The translations under genes were made by a program, and so were the position numbers. A stretch of DNA of 64,000 nucleotides from Planctomycetota bacterium (GTDB lineage: Bacteria; Planctomycetota; UBA8742; UBA2392), in NCBI GenBank assembly GCA_019636195.1, contig JAHBYA010000011.1, forward strand, positions 1-64,000, given 5' to 3'. The number at the start of each line of letters is the position of its first letter. Position 1 is the stretch's first letter. Of this stretch, positions 13,496-25,947 are shown piece after piece. The notes under the pieces are model-generated. The model was not told where the DNA came from. It made no database searches and worked only from the letters and a program-made list of their open reading frames with translations.

Positions 13496-14800
13496 CTACT
13501 TCGGAATGAAGACTTCCTGGCCCAGCGTGCTGCCGCTGATGTGCTCGTTGTAGCGGTTCATATTGAAGCGGCTTACGCCGTAGTCGCTTGCGTACTGGTC
13601 AAGCGTGCGGCCGTCACCCGTAACGACCTTGCATACGCGGCGCTTGAAGGGCACGAGCCACGCATCCCAGCTTTCCAGCTCAGTGTATGCCAGCGGTTCC
13701 GGCACGTCTGCGCCGCGGTTGCCGGCGTTTGCGACCTCGGCCAGCTTGCCGCAGCCAAGGTGCCAGTAACTTACCGCGGGTACGCCCATGTCCAGCGCGG
13801 TTGTGACCCGCAGCGTGGTGGCGCGAAACGACGGCACCGCCGCCCACTGCCCCTTGTAGCGCACCGCCAGCTCTGCTTCCTGTTTCATCCAAGCGGCTGT
13901 GAATTGCGGCTGAGAGGCGAGTTTCGGCCAGTCGTTGATGGTCACCGACTTGGCCTTGGGCACGCCGGCGTCCGGCGGCTCGGGCCAGTCGTAGCCGTAG
14001 AGCGGCAGGCACATCGTGAGCTTGTGGGCATAGGGCGCCCAGTGGTCCAGCAGGCGCCGGTAGGCGTCAATCGGGCACAGGGCGCCGGGCAGGCTGCCGC
14101 TCCAGTGATAGTCGTACATCATGAAGCGCACGGTATAGACCTGCGGCATCTTCAGCAGTTTTGTGACCGCGTCGATCTGCTGGGGGCGCAGCACGCTGTC
14201 CACCGGCTGCAGCGTAAACGCGAGGCGCGTGCCGGCGTCCAGCCGGTCGGCCAGCAACTGCGCCAGCTCGGGCAGGGCGTTTGCGTGCGCGGTGGTCAGG
14301 GATTCATAGTCCAGGTCAAGGTGCTGGCAGCGGCTGTCAGCCAGCAGGCGTGTAAGCCTGTCGGCGTGGGCCTTCAGGCGGCCCGGGCCGAGCGCGCCCT
14401 CGAGCGACTTGCCGTGATTCGTGACCGTCAACCATGTGCGCGCGCCGCGCAGCACAGCAAGGTTGCGGCCGCGCTCAAGGTTGCCGGCGTCTTCAAGCTT
14501 CACGCCACCCTGTTCATCGACCGTGCCGTGAAAGAACAGCAGGTCGGTGAAGCCGGCTTTGGTCGCCTGTTCCACGACTTGCGGCTCGTCGGTCCAGGAC
14601 GGCACCCAGCCCTCAAGTCGGTCCAGCCGCTCAAGCGGCGTGGGTGAAAAGCGGCGGGGCGGCGGTTCGGGGCGCGGCTCAAGGTTGCGCACAACACAGC
14701 CGATGGCCAGCGCCGCCAGCATGGCAACGCCGAACAGCGCGCCGGCAATCTGCGCACTCCGGCCGTTCAGGCGGATTTCAAATCGCCTCTTTCGCGCCAT
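13496..14800 (-). CDS. Membrane-anchored GH18-like protein with C-terminal LysM
   Basis: Start taken at 14800 (MARKRRFEIRL), avoiding an upstream ATG without support; a TATTGT box lies 11 nt before it. A single N-terminal helix (about 17-36) anchors the 434-residue protein. The extracellular part resembles the glycoside hydrolase 18 fold: the strand LDLDYE (161-166) supplies Asp and the catalytic Glu166, and the YDYHW and PLYGYDW strands match GH18 positions. The last 45 residues (GDGRTLDQYASDYGVS to VFIPK) form a LysM peptidoglycan-binding module. Known relatives cut peptidoglycan or act as spore-cortex-type hydrolases; the substrate here is not determined. Confidence 0.82.
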   Translation of the reverse strand: MARKRRFEIRLNGRSAQIAGALFGVAMLAALAIGCVVRNLEPRPEPPPRRFSPTPLERLDRLEGWVPSWTDEPQVVEQATKAGFTDLLFFHGTVDEQGGVKLEDAGNLERGRNLAVLRGARTWLTVTNHGKSLEGALGPGRLKAHADRLTRLLADSRCQHLDLDYESLTTAHANALPELAQLLADRLDAGTRLAFTLQPVDSVLRPQQIDAVTKLLKMPQVYTVRFMMYDYHWSGSLPGALCPIDAYRRLLDHWAPYAHKLTMCLPLYGYDWPEPPDAGVPKAKSVTINDWPKLASQPQFTAAWMKQEAELAVRYKGQWAAVPSFRATTLRVTTALDMGVPAVSYWHLGCGKLAEVANAGNRGADVPEPLAYTELESWDAWLVPFKRRVCKVVTGDGRTLDQYASDYGVSRFNMNRYNEHISGSTLGQEVFIPK

Positions 14801-14925
14801 CGCTCCCCGGCACAATATCGGCGGGGGGTGCAATGCAGCCGCAGCAATTCGGTGGCTGGCGCCTGCCCGGCACAGTGGACTGTATGCCCCCGACTGTTCG
14901 AAGTAGAATCGCTTGCGGGGGAAGC

Positions 14926-16566
14926 ATGCGTTGTGGATGGATCGGCCTGCTGGTACTGGCGCTTGCCGCTTGCGGCGGCGGCGATAACGGCGGAGGCGGC
15001 GGCGGCAACGACGCCCTGCCGCCGCCGGCGCTGACCGGCCGGGTGGTGAAGGGGCCGTTTACGTCCGGCACGGCGGAGGCCCTTGCCATCAACGCCAACG
15101 GGACGCTGGGCACGCAGATAGGCAGCGCGTCGATCCGGGCCGACAGCACGTATTCGATCACCCGGGGCAGCCACAGCGGGCCGCTGGTTTTGCGCGCCAG
15201 CGGCGGCGCATACCTGGACGAAGCCACCGGCACGACCACGCAGACCGCCGACCTGCACGCGGCAACTTCGCTGGTGATGGTGCCGTCGCTGGTTGTCACG
15301 CCGCTGACCGGCATTGCGTGGGCGCGCGCGCAGCGGCGCATCAGCCTCGGCGGCAACGTGGCGCTCAGTATCGCGCGCAGCAACACTGAAACCGGCAACT
15401 GGTTCGGCATACCCGACCTGATCAGTACCGCGCCCGCCGACCTTGCGGGCGGCCCGGTTGCGGTCGTGGACGCGGCCGCCGAGTACGGCGCGATCCTGGC
15501 CGGCATTTCGCAGCTTGCGCTGTCACTGACGGTCGCCTCGGACCAGCTTGCGGCGGCGCTGGCGCTGGACGCCGCCGACGGCGCGCTGGACGGCATGGAC
15601 GGCGCCACGCCCGTACCGCTGGGCGCGGGCAACCTTTCACCCACGGCGGCGCAGGCCGACCTGGCCAATGCCATCACGGCGTTTCTGGCCTCGGCGGCCA
15701 ACAACAGCGGGCTGACCGCAGCCGACTTTGCGGCGTTGATCGCGCGCCTGAATTCGCGGCCTGACCAGTTGCTGTTTCCGCTGAACATCACGGTCACGCC
15801 CGCCAACGTGACCGTGGCGCAGGGTTGGCTGATTCAATACAGCGCGCTTGCCAGCATGAGCGACAACACGCAACAGAACGTGACCGGCACCGCAACCTGG
15901 AACAGCACCAACGGCGCGGTCGCCGGCATATCGGCGACCGGCGCCGCAGACGCGCTTTCCGCAGGCAACACGACCATCCAGGCCACGCTCCAAGGCGTCA
16001 ACGGCGACACGTCGCTGACGGTTGGCAACTACACACTCAGCAGCGTTGCCGTCACGCCCGCCTCGCCGACGATCATTGTCAACAGCACCCAGCAGTTCAC
16101 AGCCACAGCCACGCACAGCGACGCCAGCACTGCGGACATCACGGCGCTGGTGGACTGGAGCAGCACCAACGCCATGGTGCTTGGGGTCAGTGTGACAGGG
16201 CTGGGCCACGGCAACGCGCGGGGCACGGCCAATGCGATCGCGACGGCAGCCGGCACCGGCGTGTTCGGGCAGACGACCGTGAACGTCGAGTACAGCTACG
16301 CCACGCACATCCAGCCGATTTTCAACACCTACTGCCAGAACTGCCACGGCGTCAGCGGCGGCCTGTCGCTGCATGACTACGCCGGCCTGATGGCGGGCGG
16401 CGTCAGCGGCGCCGTGGTGACGGCCGGCAACAGCGCCGGCAGCATCATCGTGCAGCGCATTGAGGGCACAATCCAGCCGCAGATGCCAAGCGGTGCGCCG
16501 CCGCTCAGCGCGCAGCAGATCCAGCGCATCAAGGACTGGATCGACGACGGCGCCAAGAACAACTGA
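14926..16566 (+). CDS. Lipoprotein with Ig-like repeats and C-terminal cytochrome c domain
   Basis: Start at 14926, 16 nt after a TAGAAT box (14904-14909), gives a clear lipoprotein signal with Cys16 in LALAAC followed by a Gly-rich linker. Residues near 285-455 contain two bacterial Ig-like (Big_2) repeats (ITVTPANVTVAQG and VAVTPASPTIIVNSTQQF). The C-terminus is a monoheme cytochrome c: CQNCH (470-474) binds heme, with Met520 in QPQMP as the likely second axial ligand. This cytochrome type is common in planctomycetes. It begins a cassette with a porin and a second cytochrome, 20 nt apart. Surface or periplasmic electron transfer is inferred. Confidence 0.85.
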   Translation: MRCGWIGLLVLALAACGGGDNGGGGGGNDALPPPALTGRVVKGPFTSGTAEALAINANGTLGTQIGSASIRADSTYSITRGSHSGPLVLRASGGAYLDEATGTTTQTADLHAATSLVMVPSLVVTPLTGIAWARAQRRISLGGNVALSIARSNTETGNWFGIPDLISTAPADLAGGPVAVVDAAAEYGAILAGISQLALSLTVASDQLAAALALDAADGALDGMDGATPVPLGAGNLSPTAAQADLANAITAFLASAANNSGLTAADFAALIARLNSRPDQLLFPLNITVTPANVTVAQGWLIQYSALASMSDNTQQNVTGTATWNSTNGAVAGISATGAADALSAGNTTIQATLQGVNGDTSLTVGNYTLSSVAVTPASPTIIVNSTQQFTATATHSDASTADITALVDWSSTNAMVLGVSVTGLGHGNARGTANAIATAAGTGVFGQTTVNVEYSYATHIQPIFNTYCQNCHGVSGGLSLHDYAGLMAGGVSGAVVTAGNSAGSIIVQRIEGTIQPQMPSGAPPLSAQQIQRIKDWIDDGAKNN

Positions 16567-16585
16567 GCCCACGGACAGGAACGAC

Positions 16586-17758
16586 ATGCGCACCTTCTGC
16601 TGGTTGTTGTTGCTTTGCTGCCTGCCGCTGTGCGCGCAGTCAGTGCCGGATGCCGCGGCGCCTGCGGCCGATGAAAGCGGCAAAGAAGGCGACGACGCCG
16701 GCTCGGCCCCGCTGTTTCGGTGGCGCGTGGGCGCCAGCCTGGCGCTTACGCATGGCGCGCTGCTGACCGACCCCAAGTTCAATGACAGCATGCCCGACGA
16801 GGGCTTTGTCGGCGAGTTCGCGCTGTCAGGCCGCGTGACGGCCCGCGACTACGGCATAAGCGCGAAAATGCGCGTGTGCTGGGGCTGCCACGGCCTCGAC
16901 CTTGAAGAAGCCAGCATTCAATGGAGCCCGTGGCCGTGGATGACCGCCCGCGCGGGCAGGCTGAATGTCAACGCCGGCAGCCTGAATTCGCGCCATGACT
17001 TTTCAGTGCGGCGCACCATCAGCAAGCCGCTGACGCGCATCATGGGCAACATGCCGCGCGCGCGAGAGTTCAACCAGGGCGTGCTGCCCGCACCCTACAG
17101 CGACCTTGGCGCAAGCCTGGCGTTTCACTGGGACACGGGTAACTTCGGCTTCGGCATTGAGGGCTTTGCCCTGCGCGGCCTCAAGGGCAGCGTCACCAGC
17201 GTTGATATCGACTTTGTGGCCAGCCGCGACTGGCGCGACAGCAACGGCGAGCCCAGCTTCGGCGGGCGCATGAGCTTTGACGTTCCGTTTGTCAGCCTGG
17301 ATTTCGCGTACCTGTGGGGCAACTACGACCCCGGCAGCCGACGAAGTTATCACTTCCTCAGTGCCGACCTCGTTGCGCGCCTTGGGCCGATCACCCTTGA
17401 GGGCGAGTTCGCGTTTCGATCAACCGAGTACCAGGACCCTGCCAAAGCTGATCGCGAAAAGGACTTTTACAAGTACGGGGCGTGGGGCCAGCTGACATGG
17501 CAGATCCTTGAGCCGCTGAGCCTTGTCATTGCGGTGGACACGCTTCACGTTGAGCGGATCTTTCTGGGCGCCAACGGCCCGACCGTCAACCCGGCGCTGG
17601 CCGTGACCGATGACCACAACCGCATCGTGCGAATCCAGGGCGGGGTTGGCTGGACGCCGTGGGGAGGCATCATGGTGCGAGTGATGGCGGAGTACTGGGA
17701 GTTTTCGGACTTTCACGACAGTTGGGTGATTCAAGCGGGGTTGGGATGGGCATTCTGA
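16586..17758 (+). CDS. Porin-like outer-membrane barrel with embedded CxxCH heme motif
   Basis: A 390-residue protein with a signal peptide (MRTFCWLLLLCCLPLCAQ), an acidic linker, then alternating amphipathic strands to a final aromatic residue (GLGWAF), as in outer-membrane barrels. The segment LEEASIQWSPWPWMTARAGR, then DFSVRR, resembles phosphate-selective porin O/P relatives. Unexpectedly CWGCH (98-102), a c-type heme motif, sits between early strands. Start at 16586 is supported by GGACAGGA upstream. It is flanked by two cytochrome c genes, overlapping the next by 13 nt. Heme attachment would make it a porin-cytochrome; the motif alone does not prove this. Confidence 0.78.
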   Translation: MRTFCWLLLLCCLPLCAQSVPDAAAPAADESGKEGDDAGSAPLFRWRVGASLALTHGALLTDPKFNDSMPDEGFVGEFALSGRVTARDYGISAKMRVCWGCHGLDLEEASIQWSPWPWMTARAGRLNVNAGSLNSRHDFSVRRTISKPLTRIMGNMPRAREFNQGVLPAPYSDLGASLAFHWDTGNFGFGIEGFALRGLKGSVTSVDIDFVASRDWRDSNGEPSFGGRMSFDVPFVSLDFAYLWGNYDPGSRRSYHFLSADLVARLGPITLEGEFAFRSTEYQDPAKADREKDFYKYGAWGQLTWQILEPLSLVIAVDTLHVERIFLGANGPTVNPALAVTDDHNRIVRIQGGVGWTPWGGIMVRVMAEYWEFSDFHDSWVIQAGLGWAF

Positions 17759-18048
17759 AGTGGATGTTGCCGCTGTGCCTGGTGCTGGCGGCGTGCAAGG
17801 CAAGTTCAAACTACGACCCGGACTTTGAGCCCGCGCCTGAGCAGGTCAAAGCCGACTGGCCCATGACCAAACAGCGTTGCAGCCAGTGCCACACGCTGGA
17901 CCGCGTGTTTTTGCAGATGGAGCTGCAAAACGACAAGGGCGACGTCGAGTGGATGGTCGAAGACATGGCATCGCGGCGCGGCAGCAAGATCAAAAGCGAC
18001 GAAGTGCCGCGCATCGTAAACGTGCTCGACTGGCACCGCACGCGCTGA
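17746..18048 (+). CDS. Small lipoprotein monoheme cytochrome c
   Basis: A 100-residue protein starting inside the end of the barrel gene (17746). It has a lipoprotein signal with Cys17 in LVLAAC and one heme motif, CSQCHT (45-50). Several Met residues follow (MELQ, MVED, DMAS) and could be the distal ligand. It is much smaller than the first cytochrome of the cassette. The overlap indicates coupled translation with the barrel, suggesting a physical or functional partnership. Electron shuttle to or from the barrel is inference. Confidence 0.82.
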   Translation: MGILKWMLPLCLVLAACKASSNYDPDFEPAPEQVKADWPMTKQRCSQCHTLDRVFLQMELQNDKGDVEWMVEDMASRRGSKIKSDEVPRIVNVLDWHRTR

Positions 18049-20598: not shown

Positions 20599-23500
20599 TT
20601 ACCTCTTCTCTTCGTGGCGCACGACTCTTGTGCGCTGGATCAGTTCCGCGTCAAGGCCATGGAACTGGATGTTGCTCTTGTAGTCCTCGGCGGCGAACGT
20701 GCCCTGCCGGTAATAGATGTACACCCGGAACTCCATACGCTCTGCAAGCACTCCACCCTGCGAACCGGGCAGGTTGGTCAGCCGCTCGGTCTGTTCATAG
20801 CGCGTGGTGCCCAGGTCCTCCGTAAACGGGCCGTTCAGGTCAAAGTCAAAGGCGTACAGCCCGCCCGGCCTGTTGGTGGGCAGGCTACCCCACTCGGGCA
20901 TCGGCTGGCCCGGTTGCTTGAAGCGCACGATCAGTCGGGCGCTGATCGTGTCGGCGTGGCGGGCGGGATCCGACAGCGGGGCGTACTGGATGCGCCAGCG
21001 CAATTGCGTAAAGCGCGAGTTGCGCGCGGCGACTGCGCCCTGGAAGTAGCTGATCTCGGGGCTTTCGGCGCCGGGGATCGCGCGCAGCGGCTCGGTGGTG
21101 TGGCCGGGCTCAAACTGCCCCTTTTCGTCGTAGCAGAAGCCGGGAAACCAGTCCGGAAAGCGCACCGGCTGGTCAAAGAACAGTGCGCGCGACCCCCAGC
21201 CCATGGCGCGGGTGCCGTACGCACCCCGGAACAGCGCCTGCTGCCATGGCCCGTTGTACAGGCCCGCGGTAATGGTGCCGACGCGCAGCATCACGCCCGG
21301 GCTGTTCGGGTCCACCTGCTGCTGCTCCGTGTAATCCTGGTAGCCGATGACTTCTTCGCGGCCCTGGTCCACCAGCCTGACAAACCCGTAGGCGCGATAA
21401 CTGTCTTCGCCGACCACGGTGAGGATGATGTTGTTTGAGGCCGAGCCGGAGCCGGAAAGCGGGCGGCCGATGCGCAGGCTGGCCATGTTCATGATGGTGG
21501 TGCCTGCGGCGTGGCTTTGGATGCGCGTGCCCAACACGCCGCGCGTGATGTCCTGCAGTTCAAAGGCCTGCATCGTTGTCCACATCTGGTTGGCCAGGTC
21601 CCAGGTCTGCACGCTGGTGGGCGCGACGGCGCGGTAGCACACGAGCTCGTCGTCGATCTTGACGACGCCGAAGTTGCCGGTGGGCGCGGCGTTGACGATG
21701 ATGCTTTCGCCCTCACCGGGGCTGCCGGGGTTCATTTCACTGAGCAGCCGGAAGTTGCCCTTGTTGTACATGCGCAGCTCAAAGGCGTCGAAGTCCGCAA
21801 CGTGGGTCAGCAGCGCGTTGGCGCCGTCGGCGGTGCGCGGGTCAGCGCCGGCAAAGCGCCAGTCCACGGGCAGCTGCACCGGCAGCTCGCCGGTGGGGAA
21901 CTTGCACAGGTTGGTGCCCGTGTAGGGATAGTTGGGGTTGTTGGGGTTGTTGATCGGGTTGGGCTGGTAATCAAAGCCGGTGTGGTCGTACAGCGCGCAG
22001 ATGTACTGGTCCCAGTTGGGGGTAGGCGGGATGACCTGGCCGTTGGCGTTCAGCCATACCAGGTTGATCTCACCGGCGTACTGGCGAAGGTTGCGCTGGA
22101 TGCGTATGCGGTGCTGTTCCTTGTCGCCGTTCTTGCCGTTGACCAGCGTGATGATGTCGCCGGCGCCGCTGGTCACGGTGGTGCCGAACGTGGGCACAAC
22201 GCGCGCCGCCGCCTGGTGCGCCGAGACGGTGGTGCCCATCGCGCCGCGCCAGGGCGCGGGCAGCGGCGGGTTGGCGTTGTTGTTGCGCGAGGCATTGATC
22301 ACCATGCCCCCGGGCAGGTTCGGGTTGAGGTAGATCAGCGCCGGGAAGTAGTTGTCGTCGCGGCCGGTCGGCGTGCTGCCGGTGGCATCGATGCCGACTG
22401 CCGGGTTCCAGACGCAGTGGTACTGGAGCCACTCGTTGTCGATCTGGACAATGCTGCGCGGGTGGTAGCCGGTGGCGTCGTCGATGTCGATGCTGAGCAG
22501 GCAGACGCAGCTGCCCTGCGAAAAGAAGTCGATGCAGTTCTGGATGGTCTGTGCGCCCGGCCCGGTCGGCGTCGGGAACAGGTCGGTCTGGTACGAGGCC
22601 AGGAAGTGCCAGTAGTCGGCAGGGTCAATGCGGTTGAAGTTCATGTCGTAGCGCGCCAGCACGTTCAGGCCCTGCGAACTGATGCCGTTGTAGGCCACGA
22701 TTTCCGTGCGCGGGGCGGTTACGACCGAGTACGGCGGCGGGAATTGCAGCGTGGTGGCAGCGGGGTTGCCGCTCCAGTTGGGGTAGTTCACGCTGCCCGG
22801 CGGTGACTGCGGCAGGCCCGGCGTACCCGGCGGGAAATAGCGCCGGAAAGCCGGCCCCACGACCAGCAGCACGCCGCGGTCAGGCAACCCCAAATAGTTC
22901 ACGAGCCGCAAGCGGTTGGGGTCGCCGCCCAGCGACTGGTCGCCCGCGCCCGGAAAGCCGGCATCGGGGCCAAGCTCGTTGGCGCGGTAGTAGTTGTTGT
23001 TGGGGCGGCCTGCACCCGCAACGCGCCAGAAGGGCTGGTTGGAAAACCCGCTGGCCAGGTTGCCGCGCGTCAGCGGCAGGTTCGGGAATGTGGGCCGGAA
23101 CTGTTCGTTGGCCGCGTGCTGCGTCGCCCACGCGCGCAACGGTGCGGTGTACCCGAACACGGTGACCTTGCTGCCGCGCGGGTGGCTGCGCGCAAGCGTG
23201 CCGCGCGCGCCGGTGGCGCTGCCCTGCACGTTGGGGTTGGCGGGGCCGCGATACAGGTTTACCAGCGAGGTGCCGATCTTGCCGTTGTACTCCATGGCTT
23301 CGTCGCCGATCAGCACCACGCCCTGGTCGGGAAACGCGTCAATGTCGGCGGGGTCGATCGGCAGCTCAAACTGTGTGCGCTGCCGGTCCTTGGGGTCTTC
23401 CAGGTCGATCTGCAGCGTGCTGGTACGGCTGACCCACGCGCCGTTGGCCTTGCGAAAGCTGTGCTGCACGGACGGCTTGACGCCGGGGTTGCCCGGCCCG

Positions 23501-25947
23501 GCGCTGCAGTCGCCGTCCAGAATCATGCTCAGGTGCGACAGGTCGGTGCCCTTGAAGTTCAGGGCCATGTGGTACCACTCGTGATGCCGGAAGCTGCTGT
23601 CATCCAGCTCATAGCGCAGCTCGGTGTAGGCTTCTTCCAGCGTGCGGTCCTTCACGCGATACACCAGCGCGCCGCGCTTGCCGGCCATGTTGTCGCCCTG
23701 CACGCGCTCGCCCCACCACAGCAGGCTCATGCGGTTGCTGTACTCCTGCTCAGCCACGTCAAACAGGTAGTGGTTCGCGTTCAGGTCTTCCCAGTGGCGG
23801 CGGTACCACAGGCTGAACATGCCGGCTTCAAGGTCGCCGGCGTTGTAGGTTGACCCGCCGGGCGAAGTCACCTGCCCCACATTGCTGTAAAAGCGCTCGC
23901 GCCGCTGGTTGGTGTCCACGCCCATCGCGTGCACGTCGCGCGCTTGCGCGCCGGCCCACGGCCGGTCATCGCGCTGGCGGATGTGCCGTTCGTCGTTCAA
24001 ATAGTGCAGGTACGGCAGCTCGACAAATCCTTCCTGCCGCCGGTTCACGATGTTGCCGCGCTGCAACTGCAGGATGTTGCCCTGCGGCTGGCGCATCTCC
24101 TCGGCCATCTGTTGCCACAGCCGCCAGTGGTACCACGTGGGCTGGTCGCTGCCGACCAGCGCCCACTCACGGAATGCGTTGCGCGCGCGCGTGCCGCCCG
24201 CCGGCTGGTAGCTGGTGGCAAACGCGTCCACCATGTAGGCGTCCAGGCTGTCGAAGCGCACCTGCATCGTGGTCAAGCCGGGTGTGCGCGAGTACGGGTA
24301 GCGCTGCTGCTGCGCGAACACGCCAAGCTGCTCAGGAAAGATGGGCGGGTTTTCCTGCTGCGACAGCGTGGTCAGGAAGTTCAGGAACTGGTTGAGGTCG
24401 GCAAACGAATTCAGCGGCAGCGGTGTGCCGTCGTCGCGATAACCGCCGCCTTCGGACAGGTGCGCGAGAATCGCGTTGGCGACGCGGCGTGCCTCGTTGA
24501 TCGCGATCGGCCCCACGCCGCCGCGCGGCCCCACGCCGTGAAACAGCGCCACCAGCGCGTCAAAGTTGGCGGTGTTGATGTTCACGCTTGCGCGCTCGGC
24601 GACTTCGATGATCCAGCCTTCGCTGGTATCAAGCGTCCACGCGCCGTTGCACACCAGGATGCAGCTGCCGGGGCTGCCGTCCATCACCCACGCCAGGAAC
24701 TGCGTGCCGTTGGCGTTGCGCAGTCGCACCAGGTTGTCCGGGCCGAAGCCCGCGCGCGGGAAGTTGTTGCCCTGCGGGATGCGCGGGTCGCCGGCGACGT
24801 AGTAGTTGGCCTGAAATGCCTGCCGGTGCTCGTAACGCACCAGCAGCGCGGTCTTGCCCGATTCGCCGACCGGCACCATGTCGCCGTAGGTGACCACGTG
24901 CGGGTAAAACCACCCGCCGTCAAAGCGGTGCGTCGGCGCGATCACGGTCGTGGTTTCCTCAAGGCGCTGGTAGGTGACCGGGTCAAGGCCTTCAGGCCAT
25001 CCGCGCAGCGGCTGGCCCATGATGTCGGGTCCGACGCGCGGGTCGTCGTTGAACAATCGCGGCAGGTTGGCAATGCGGCGCACGTCGGCCACGCTGTTGA
25101 ACATGCCGGGCACGCCGCCGCGCGCGTTGAGCAGTTTGAACAGCATGAACTTGTGGGCGGTGGGCGTGGTCACATAGCTGCCCATCGGCAGCACGCGGTC
25201 CGGCGGCAAGTGGCGGAAGATCGCGTTGCCGCCGACGCCGTTGTATGCGGGGTTGGCCTGCACGTTGTACAGCGCGTTGCCGCTGCGCCCGCCGTACCGG
25301 AACAACTGGCCGTCAATCACAACATAGCCGCCGTTGCGTGTGCTGCTGGTTTCATCATATGCGTCCAGAAAGCTGGCGTCGGACAGGTTGATTTGCGGAT
25401 ACACCACGCCTTCGGGCGTGACTTCGCCGGAGATGATGGCGGCGCCCAGCGTGTTGGCGATGGTCACGACGTTGGAGAAGTTGAGGTTGACCTTGCCGGT
25501 TTCATCGGCCACGGTCAGGCCCTGCACAAGGCGCCGCGGGTCATTGACGGGAAAGCGCCTGCGCCCGTCGCGGTCCAGGATGCCCGTGAACAAGGCGGTG
25601 CTGTCCGCGAAGTCGGCCTTCATGCTGACGAACAGCTCTTCCTGCTGGTCGAGGTACGGGTTGGTCGCGTATGTGATGTTGGCGGGATCAGTTTCGTTGT
25701 ACCAGAGGTCGTATTCATTGAAGCGATTGGTTGCGTTCAGGCGTGCGTAGGCGTGATCGGCACCTGTGCGCGTGGTGATGCGCGTCTGCTCGTGCCCCAG
25801 TGCAGCGACAGCAGTGCCTTCCTGCTGCGACATCAGGAACGTGAAGCTGACTGCAAGGATCAGCAGCAGCGCCAGTACGACCATCACCATCAGCATGGCG
25901 GCGCCGCGGCGCGTGTTCCTTGGCGCGCTGGATTGGCAACTACTCAT
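20599..25947 (-). CDS. Giant PilX/GspK-like pseudopilin-operon protein
   Basis: At 1782 residues this is several times longer than usual GspK or PilX proteins. The N-terminus RRGAAMLMVMVVLALLLILAVS is PilX/GspK-like, with one membrane helix. The next region resembles GspK (VNINTANFDALVALFHGVG is the helix-hairpin-helix-like element of GspK). Beyond this lies a very long beta-rich domain with about four copies of a module of the type I-D-E-x-x-x-Y followed by RG-x-x-GT-x4-H (for example near 23200, 22220, 21520 and 21200). It overlaps the upstream pilin gene by 8 nt. It may be a tip adhesin or surface fibre subunit. Confidence 0.82.
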   Translation of the reverse strand: MSSCQSSAPRNTRRGAAMLMVMVVLALLLILAVSFTFLMSQQEGTAVAALGHEQTRITTRTGADHAYARLNATNRFNEYDLWYNETDPANITYATNPYLDQQEELFVSMKADFADSTALFTGILDRDGRRRFPVNDPRRLVQGLTVADETGKVNLNFSNVVTIANTLGAAIISGEVTPEGVVYPQINLSDASFLDAYDETSSTRNGGYVVIDGQLFRYGGRSGNALYNVQANPAYNGVGGNAIFRHLPPDRVLPMGSYVTTPTAHKFMLFKLLNARGGVPGMFNSVADVRRIANLPRLFNDDPRVGPDIMGQPLRGWPEGLDPVTYQRLEETTTVIAPTHRFDGGWFYPHVVTYGDMVPVGESGKTALLVRYEHRQAFQANYYVAGDPRIPQGNNFPRAGFGPDNLVRLRNANGTQFLAWVMDGSPGSCILVCNGAWTLDTSEGWIIEVAERASVNINTANFDALVALFHGVGPRGGVGPIAINEARRVANAILAHLSEGGGYRDDGTPLPLNSFADLNQFLNFLTTLSQQENPPIFPEQLGVFAQQQRYPYSRTPGLTTMQVRFDSLDAYMVDAFATSYQPAGGTRARNAFREWALVGSDQPTWYHWRLWQQMAEEMRQPQGNILQLQRGNIVNRRQEGFVELPYLHYLNDERHIRQRDDRPWAGAQARDVHAMGVDTNQRRERFYSNVGQVTSPGGSTYNAGDLEAGMFSLWYRRHWEDLNANHYLFDVAEQEYSNRMSLLWWGERVQGDNMAGKRGALVYRVKDRTLEEAYTELRYELDDSSFRHHEWYHMALNFKGTDLSHLSMILDGDCSAGPGNPGVKPSVQHSFRKANGAWVSRTSTLQIDLEDPKDRQRTQFELPIDPADIDAFPDQGVVLIGDEAMEYNGKIGTSLVNLYRGPANPNVQGSATGARGTLARSHPRGSKVTVFGYTAPLRAWATQHAANEQFRPTFPNLPLTRGNLASGFSNQPFWRVAGAGRPNNNYYRANELGPDAGFPGAGDQSLGGDPNRLRLVNYLGLPDRGVLLVVGPAFRRYFPPGTPGLPQSPPGSVNYPNWSGNPAATTLQFPPPYSVVTAPRTEIVAYNGISSQGLNVLARYDMNFNRIDPADYWHFLASYQTDLFPTPTGPGAQTIQNCIDFFSQGSCVCLLSIDIDDATGYHPRSIVQIDNEWLQYHCVWNPAVGIDATGSTPTGRDDNYFPALIYLNPNLPGGMVINASRNNNANPPLPAPWRGAMGTTVSAHQAAARVVPTFGTTVTSGAGDIITLVNGKNGDKEQHRIRIQRNLRQYAGEINLVWLNANGQVIPPTPNWDQYICALYDHTGFDYQPNPINNPNNPNYPYTGTNLCKFPTGELPVQLPVDWRFAGADPRTADGANALLTHVADFDAFELRMYNKGNFRLLSEMNPGSPGEGESIIVNAAPTGNFGVVKIDDELVCYRAVAPTSVQTWDLANQMWTTMQAFELQDITRGVLGTRIQSHAAGTTIMNMASLRIGRPLSGSGSASNNIILTVVGEDSYRAYGFVRLVDQGREEVIGYQDYTEQQQVDPNSPGVMLRVGTITAGLYNGPWQQALFRGAYGTRAMGWGSRALFFDQPVRFPDWFPGFCYDEKGQFEPGHTTEPLRAIPGAESPEISYFQGAVAARNSRFTQLRWRIQYAPLSDPARHADTISARLIVRFKQPGQPMPEWGSLPTNRPGGLYAFDFDLNGPFTEDLGTTRYEQTERLTNLPGSQGGVLAERMEFRVYIYYRQGTFAAEDYKSNIQFHGLDAELIQRTRVVRHEEKR

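Follow-up and report, generated by a model that had tools for sequence, protein, structure and literature searches.

The 64-kb window, meaning the whole stretch of DNA analysed, harbors an operon-like cassette of three head-to-tail genes on the + strand (14926-18048), which encode two cytochrome c lipoproteins and, between them, a predicted heme porin with a CxxCH motif inside its own β-barrel. We consider it likely that these three monoheme proteins constitute a minimal electron conduit across the outer membrane in which the barrel carries its own heme. The same gene set occurs in two phyla, Planctomycetota and Myxococcota, which suggests an outer-membrane electron wire that is compact and has not previously been described. 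Known conduits consist either of a multiheme wire threaded through a barrel scaffold or of a barrel plugged by one cytochrome; if the present assignment is true, a barrel that itself holds heme would rank with the smallest of these wires, and the engineering of electron ports could start from it as a simple template. It would also change the way in which porin-cytochromes are recognized, since searches for multiheme neighbors or for Cyc2 motifs would miss the family, and it would point to unannotated extracellular redox capacity in both phyla.

Organization and distribution of the cassette

The first gene, cytA (ATG 14926, stop 16566), encodes a 546-aa protein with an LAAC lipobox, two Ig-like repeats of the Big_2 type and, at its C-terminus, a PSCyt1-like monoheme cytochrome c domain, which contains the heme-c motif CQNCH (16333..16347); matches to PSCyt1 and Cytochrom_C exceeded the Pfam cut-offs. 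After a gap of 19 bp follows the barrel gene (ATG 16586, stop 17758), whose 390-aa product has a signal peptide, a C-terminal Phe and the motif CWGCH at residues 98-102 (16877..16891). The third gene, cytC (ATG 17746, stop 18048), begins before the barrel gene ends, with an overlap of 13 bp. Its product is a 100-aa monoheme cytochrome c lipoprotein, likewise with an LAAC lipobox, and its heme-c motif is CSQCH (17878..17892). In both lipoproteins the CxxCH falls within a cytochrome c domain, that of cytC being recognized through sub-threshold matches to c551/SorB models in Pfam and NCBIfam, while the barrel alone matched no model in either collection. Reading frames, lipoboxes and intergenic spacing all agree with the single operon of two cytochrome c lipoproteins and a barrel that the earlier note had described. 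Only four open reading frames of at least 80 codons in the window contain a CxxCH, and three of them are the genes of the cassette.

The barrel is present as a single copy in the window genome, which also contains cytochrome c assembly genes (PF01578). The cassette is flanked by non-redox genes: upstream lie one for an AIR-synthase-type (purM-like) protein, one whose product resembles IcmF_C with a sub-threshold Pfam score and one unassigned gene, and downstream a metallophosphoesterase gene and pseudopilin-like genes. Divergent from the cassette lies a 445-aa open reading frame without a Pfam match (13499-14833, - strand), and a similar frame was seen by eye at the same place in loci L037 and L038. 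A 1782-aa open reading frame (20602-25947, - strand), also without any Pfam match, adjoins two N_methyl pseudopilin-like genes.

Relatives were collected by searches of Planctomycetota and Myxococcota genomes and by a locus search in named genomes, in which the closest relatives proved to be Planctomycetota MAGs; a contig scan with the single barrel protein found no relative, whereas an alignment-based scan did. The barrel was detected in 11 of 392 sampled Planctomycetota genomes and, counting strong matches, in 28 of 195 Myxococcota genomes; the scan across phyla used a narrow motif pattern, and the barrel may occur in other phyla as well. A plasmid search for the barrel gave no match. Two sampled same-genus genomes lack it, so its distribution is patchy even within a genus, which marks the barrel as accessory.

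By a cytC profile, 36 of the 38 full-length family members encode cytC beside the barrel or as part of it, the exceptions being L013, at a contig end, and L071, a second barrel copy; in L045 cytC lies 2.6 kb from the barrel. In L014, L016 and L017 cytC is fused as a domain to the N-terminus of the barrel, on top of the CxxCH of the barrel itself. An alignment of cytC-only rows with the fusion was discarded, because it forced the two CxxCH motifs together. A myxococcotal clade (L073, L074 and L076-L080) has two heme domains in cytC and is missing cytA. The cytA domain is encoded just upstream of the barrel in 28/38 members, often overlapping the barrel start, and its motif in most Myxococcota is CX4CH. 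Examples of this form are L043 (4424-4750) and L045 (4499-4825), with CAVSGCH, CADASCH and CATSACH among the variants of the Myxococcota homologues; the cytA domains of L057, L059 and L068 showed no motif of the form C-x(2-5)-CH.

The CxxCH hairpin and the loop L3 methionine

The barrel profile divided its matches into 38 full-length members (plus partial ones), 10 from Planctomycetota and 28 from Myxococcota, scoring at least about 278 bits, and 25 outsiders scoring at most 138 bits. When the motif columns were masked from the profile the gap stayed (member minimum 266 bits, outsider maximum 139.5 bits), indicating that CxxCH does not define the split between members and outsiders. C98, C101 and H102 are kept in 38/38 members, which do not amount to 38 independent events since near-identical members (e.g. 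L060, L062 and L065) are present, and CxxCH occurs in 0/25 of the outsiders, the nearest non-family barrels. Pairwise identity among the members goes down to about 21% (median 35%), and the same site accommodates CWGCH, CFSCH, CGGCH, CYGCH and other variants. The contrast between members and outsiders rules out a chance occurrence of the motif, and a search of the full-length orthologues for its loss, the observation that the earlier note had called for, turned up no case. In the tree the members form a planctomycete clade (n=8), a myxococcotal clade (n=28) and a separate long branch of L016 and L017, fused planctomycete proteins whose placement relative to the outsiders the tree does not settle.

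A second feature follows the same division. M153-G154 (17042..17047), located in the long loop L3, the presumed constriction loop, and P170 are invariant in the 38 members and absent or different in the 25 outsiders, M153-G154 being absent from every one of these barrels without CxxCH. G124, D173, G175, D218, N220, E274 and R349, in contrast, are scaffold residues common to members and outsiders. Restriction of CxxCH and an invariant Met to the same barrels is the pattern expected of a His/Met-ligated heme c, and from this conservation we infer M153 to be a candidate distal heme ligand.

AlphaFold2 predicted 16 strands both for the window barrel (mean pLDDT 75.9, modelled without heme) and for the L042 fusion (mostly 80-95 in the barrel part). 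In both models the CxxCH forms the tip of the β3-β4 hairpin, in keeping with the earlier placement of the motif between early strands, and L3 comprises 42-44 residues, with only moderate confidence in the window protein. The connections on the CxxCH side of the two models total 122-123 residues, versus 23-27 on the other side. As porins have their long loops outside and both termini in the periplasm (PMC8406198), the CxxCH hairpin is presumably extracellular loop L2, and the N-terminus of the barrel, the end that bears cytC in the fused relatives, would be periplasmic. Across the 38 members, residues 91, 93, 95 and 97 of strand 3 are hydrophobic and residues 92, 94 and 96 polar, an alternation that would turn C98 towards the lumen. 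As modelled, the motif accordingly sits at the hairpin tip, on the side of the loops and facing the lumen, and is not buried in lipid, where the Ccm machinery had been feared to be unable to act. Moreover, heme is attached to the unfolded apoprotein (PMC10663686), before the barrel inserts, so that this worry over a buried site would not be decisive.

By Foldseek, both models matched OprP/OprO and other 16-strand porins. The fold is shared with OprP and OprO (2o4v and 4rjw) at E ~1e-11, but identity to them is 11-13% and they are without the heme motif. At the sequence level, Porin_O_P (PF07396) did not match the window protein and gave weak matches in 3/11 relatives (best E 1e-4), NCBIfam porin models matched none of 11 members, and a sequence-profile search of the PDB with the barrel returned no match. 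The label OprO/P-like, applied to the barrel beforehand, should therefore be softened: it is based on the Foldseek matches of the models and on the weak Porin_O_P matches of relatives.

Proposed electron path and competing readings

Several relatives keep redox company. OmcA/MtrC-family decahemes (TIGR03507, above cut-off) adjoin the barrel in L083, L085, L089 (twice) and L091, all from Myxococcota; no TIGR03507 decaheme was found in the window genome. In L042 the fusion gene precedes one for a cytochrome b that resembles ExtP/ExtQ; in L014, the locus equivalent to L042, a Rieske-type frame between fusion and cytochrome b and a multiheme frame downstream of the fusion were seen by eye.

Some of these loci show further features. 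In L089 two barrel copies and two decahemes lie within 20 kb, and L042 6011-8676, with its ExtP/ExtQ-like cytochrome b and multiheme cytochrome frame, resembles the Geobacter ext operon. In L085 (9397-11800), L090 (5738-8123) and L091 (7845-10263), barrel-cytC is followed by genes for a phosphatase-like (HAMP/SpoIIE) membrane protein and a small HATPase, as identified by Pfam for the L085 pair and by likeness in sequence for the other loci.

In the conduit that we propose, cytC would be a periplasm-facing lipoprotein docking at the periplasmic opening of the 16-strand barrel or inside it, and the barrel would hold a covalent heme c on the β3-β4 hairpin, facing the lumen near the extracellular end, with M153 of L3 as its likely sixth ligand. 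Electrons would hop, in either direction, between the cytC heme, the barrel heme and an outside partner, which might be cytA, a mineral or a soluble substrate in the window organism and an OmcA/MtrC-type decaheme in several Myxococcota. The distance from the heme of a plugged cytC to the L2 heme may exceed the range of fast tunnelling. The OmcA/MtrC neighbors point to outward flow in Myxococcota, whereas inward flow would be just as compatible with the Cyc2-like anatomy. Overall we lean towards a barrel wall that is itself a cytochrome, with heme c on the L2 hairpin and a Met ligand from the presumed constriction loop, acting as the outer step of a monoheme-only wire common to Planctomycetota and Myxococcota.

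The closest competitor is a Cyc2-like iron oxidase, in which Fe(II) would enter the barrel and give up its electron to the barrel heme, with cytC relaying that electron into the periplasm; the cassette would then be a soluble-metal oxidase rather than a general wire. We regard this as unlikely. Cyc2 has one CxxCH, N-terminal to its barrel, and a signature motif (PMC8406198). The barrels studied here share its size and 16-strand OprO/P-like fold (PMC8406198; AlphaFold2, Foldseek), its monoheme c-type scale and, as proposed here, a role in outer-membrane electron transfer, and in the relatives L014, L016 and L017 an N-terminal cytochrome is fused to the barrel. Nevertheless, PxFAR[QK][TY] upstream of CxxCH and PxL downstream were absent at 38/38 loci in any CxxCH frame, and several Myxococcota copies adjoin OmcA/MtrC decahemes, a family used for metal reduction. 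All members have the invariant CxxCH within the barrel, on the L2 hairpin, with an extra N-terminal one in only three, and the cytochrome of the window is a separate lipoprotein. Membership in Cyc2 was rejected on the missing signature motif and on the position of the CxxCH. The earlier note had set the barrel apart from Cyc2-type fusions; this stands as regards the internal CxxCH and the missing signature, but must be qualified for the three relatives that also possess a Cyc2-like N-terminal cytochrome.

Less probable still is a barrel CxxCH that serves as a metal site or as a redox disulfide, gating or stabilizing an anion or metal porin whose adjoining cytochromes are merely co-regulated. 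CxxCH by itself is no proof of heme, and a short hairpin can also bind Zn or Cu or form a disulfide; such a site, however, would hardly call for the exact motif, His included, in all 38 members together with a co-conserved Met and adjoining c-type cytochromes, nor for the cytochrome domain fused to three of the barrels. A catalytic or sensor heme (e.g. for surface peroxide or NO chemistry) with cytC and cytA as electron donors appears very improbable, for although a lone lumen heme in an accessible pore could be enzymatic and Myxococcota copies have regulatory-type genes (SpoIIE/HAMP, HATPase) in their vicinity, the invariance of M153 suggests a six-coordinate electron-transfer heme and the cassette contains no catalase, peroxidase or sensor domain (Pfam/NCBIfam).

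Comparison with known porin-cytochrome systems

For CxxCH motifs in barrel loops the nearest precedent, a partial one, is GM18_3465 of Geobacter sp. M18, reported in 2014 as a predicted porin-like 10-heme outer-membrane cytochrome (PMC4245776). This single reported case has 10 CxxCH motifs in long loops 5, 9, 10 and 11 of a predicted 21-strand protein (PMC4245776). It resembles the present family in having CxxCH within loops of a predicted outer-membrane barrel, but here one motif occupies a tight hairpin of a 16-strand barrel and is conserved across two phyla. No description of the barrel-heme family was found in the open-access library that was searched. The suggestion that this is a new kind of porin-cytochrome must be tempered in view of GM18_3465 and of the Cyc2-like fusions.

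In the MtrCAB, PioAB and Pcc systems the barrels are described as scaffolds of ~18-26 strands around a multiheme wire (PMC7198977, PMC4245776). As in these systems, porin and c-type cytochromes are clustered, and OmcA/MtrC-family decahemes adjoin several Myxococcota copies; unlike them, the cassette is without a multiheme protein and the motif resides in the barrel itself. Assignment to MtrAB/PioAB, with its 26-strand barrel and inserted decaheme, was rejected on the 16 strands, the restriction of the cassette to single-CxxCH proteins and the absence of TIGR03507 (OmcA/MtrC-family) matches from the genome. The Geobacter ext operon contains ExtI, a porin annotated as phosphate-selective, which is encoded with cytochromes, a Rieske protein and a cytochrome b and has a single cysteine (PMC5877670). 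Although L042 has similar partners, a single cysteine means that ExtI has no CxxCH, in contrast to the barrel family; this difference, together with the missing NCBIfam porin matches in 11 members, led us to reject ExtI membership (PMC5877670).

The outsider barrels L018-L020, which have neither CxxCH nor M153, are still flanked by a PSCyt1-like, cytA-like lipoprotein and by a cytC-type protein just downstream, indicating that porins paired with monoheme proteins extend beyond the barrel-heme family. L018, L019 and L020 thus appear as a heme-less version of the cassette module. Finally, at L007 852-2610 a porin-like barrel that has no CxxCH precedes a small cytochrome lipoprotein (CSACH), and the two may form another porin-monoheme pair.
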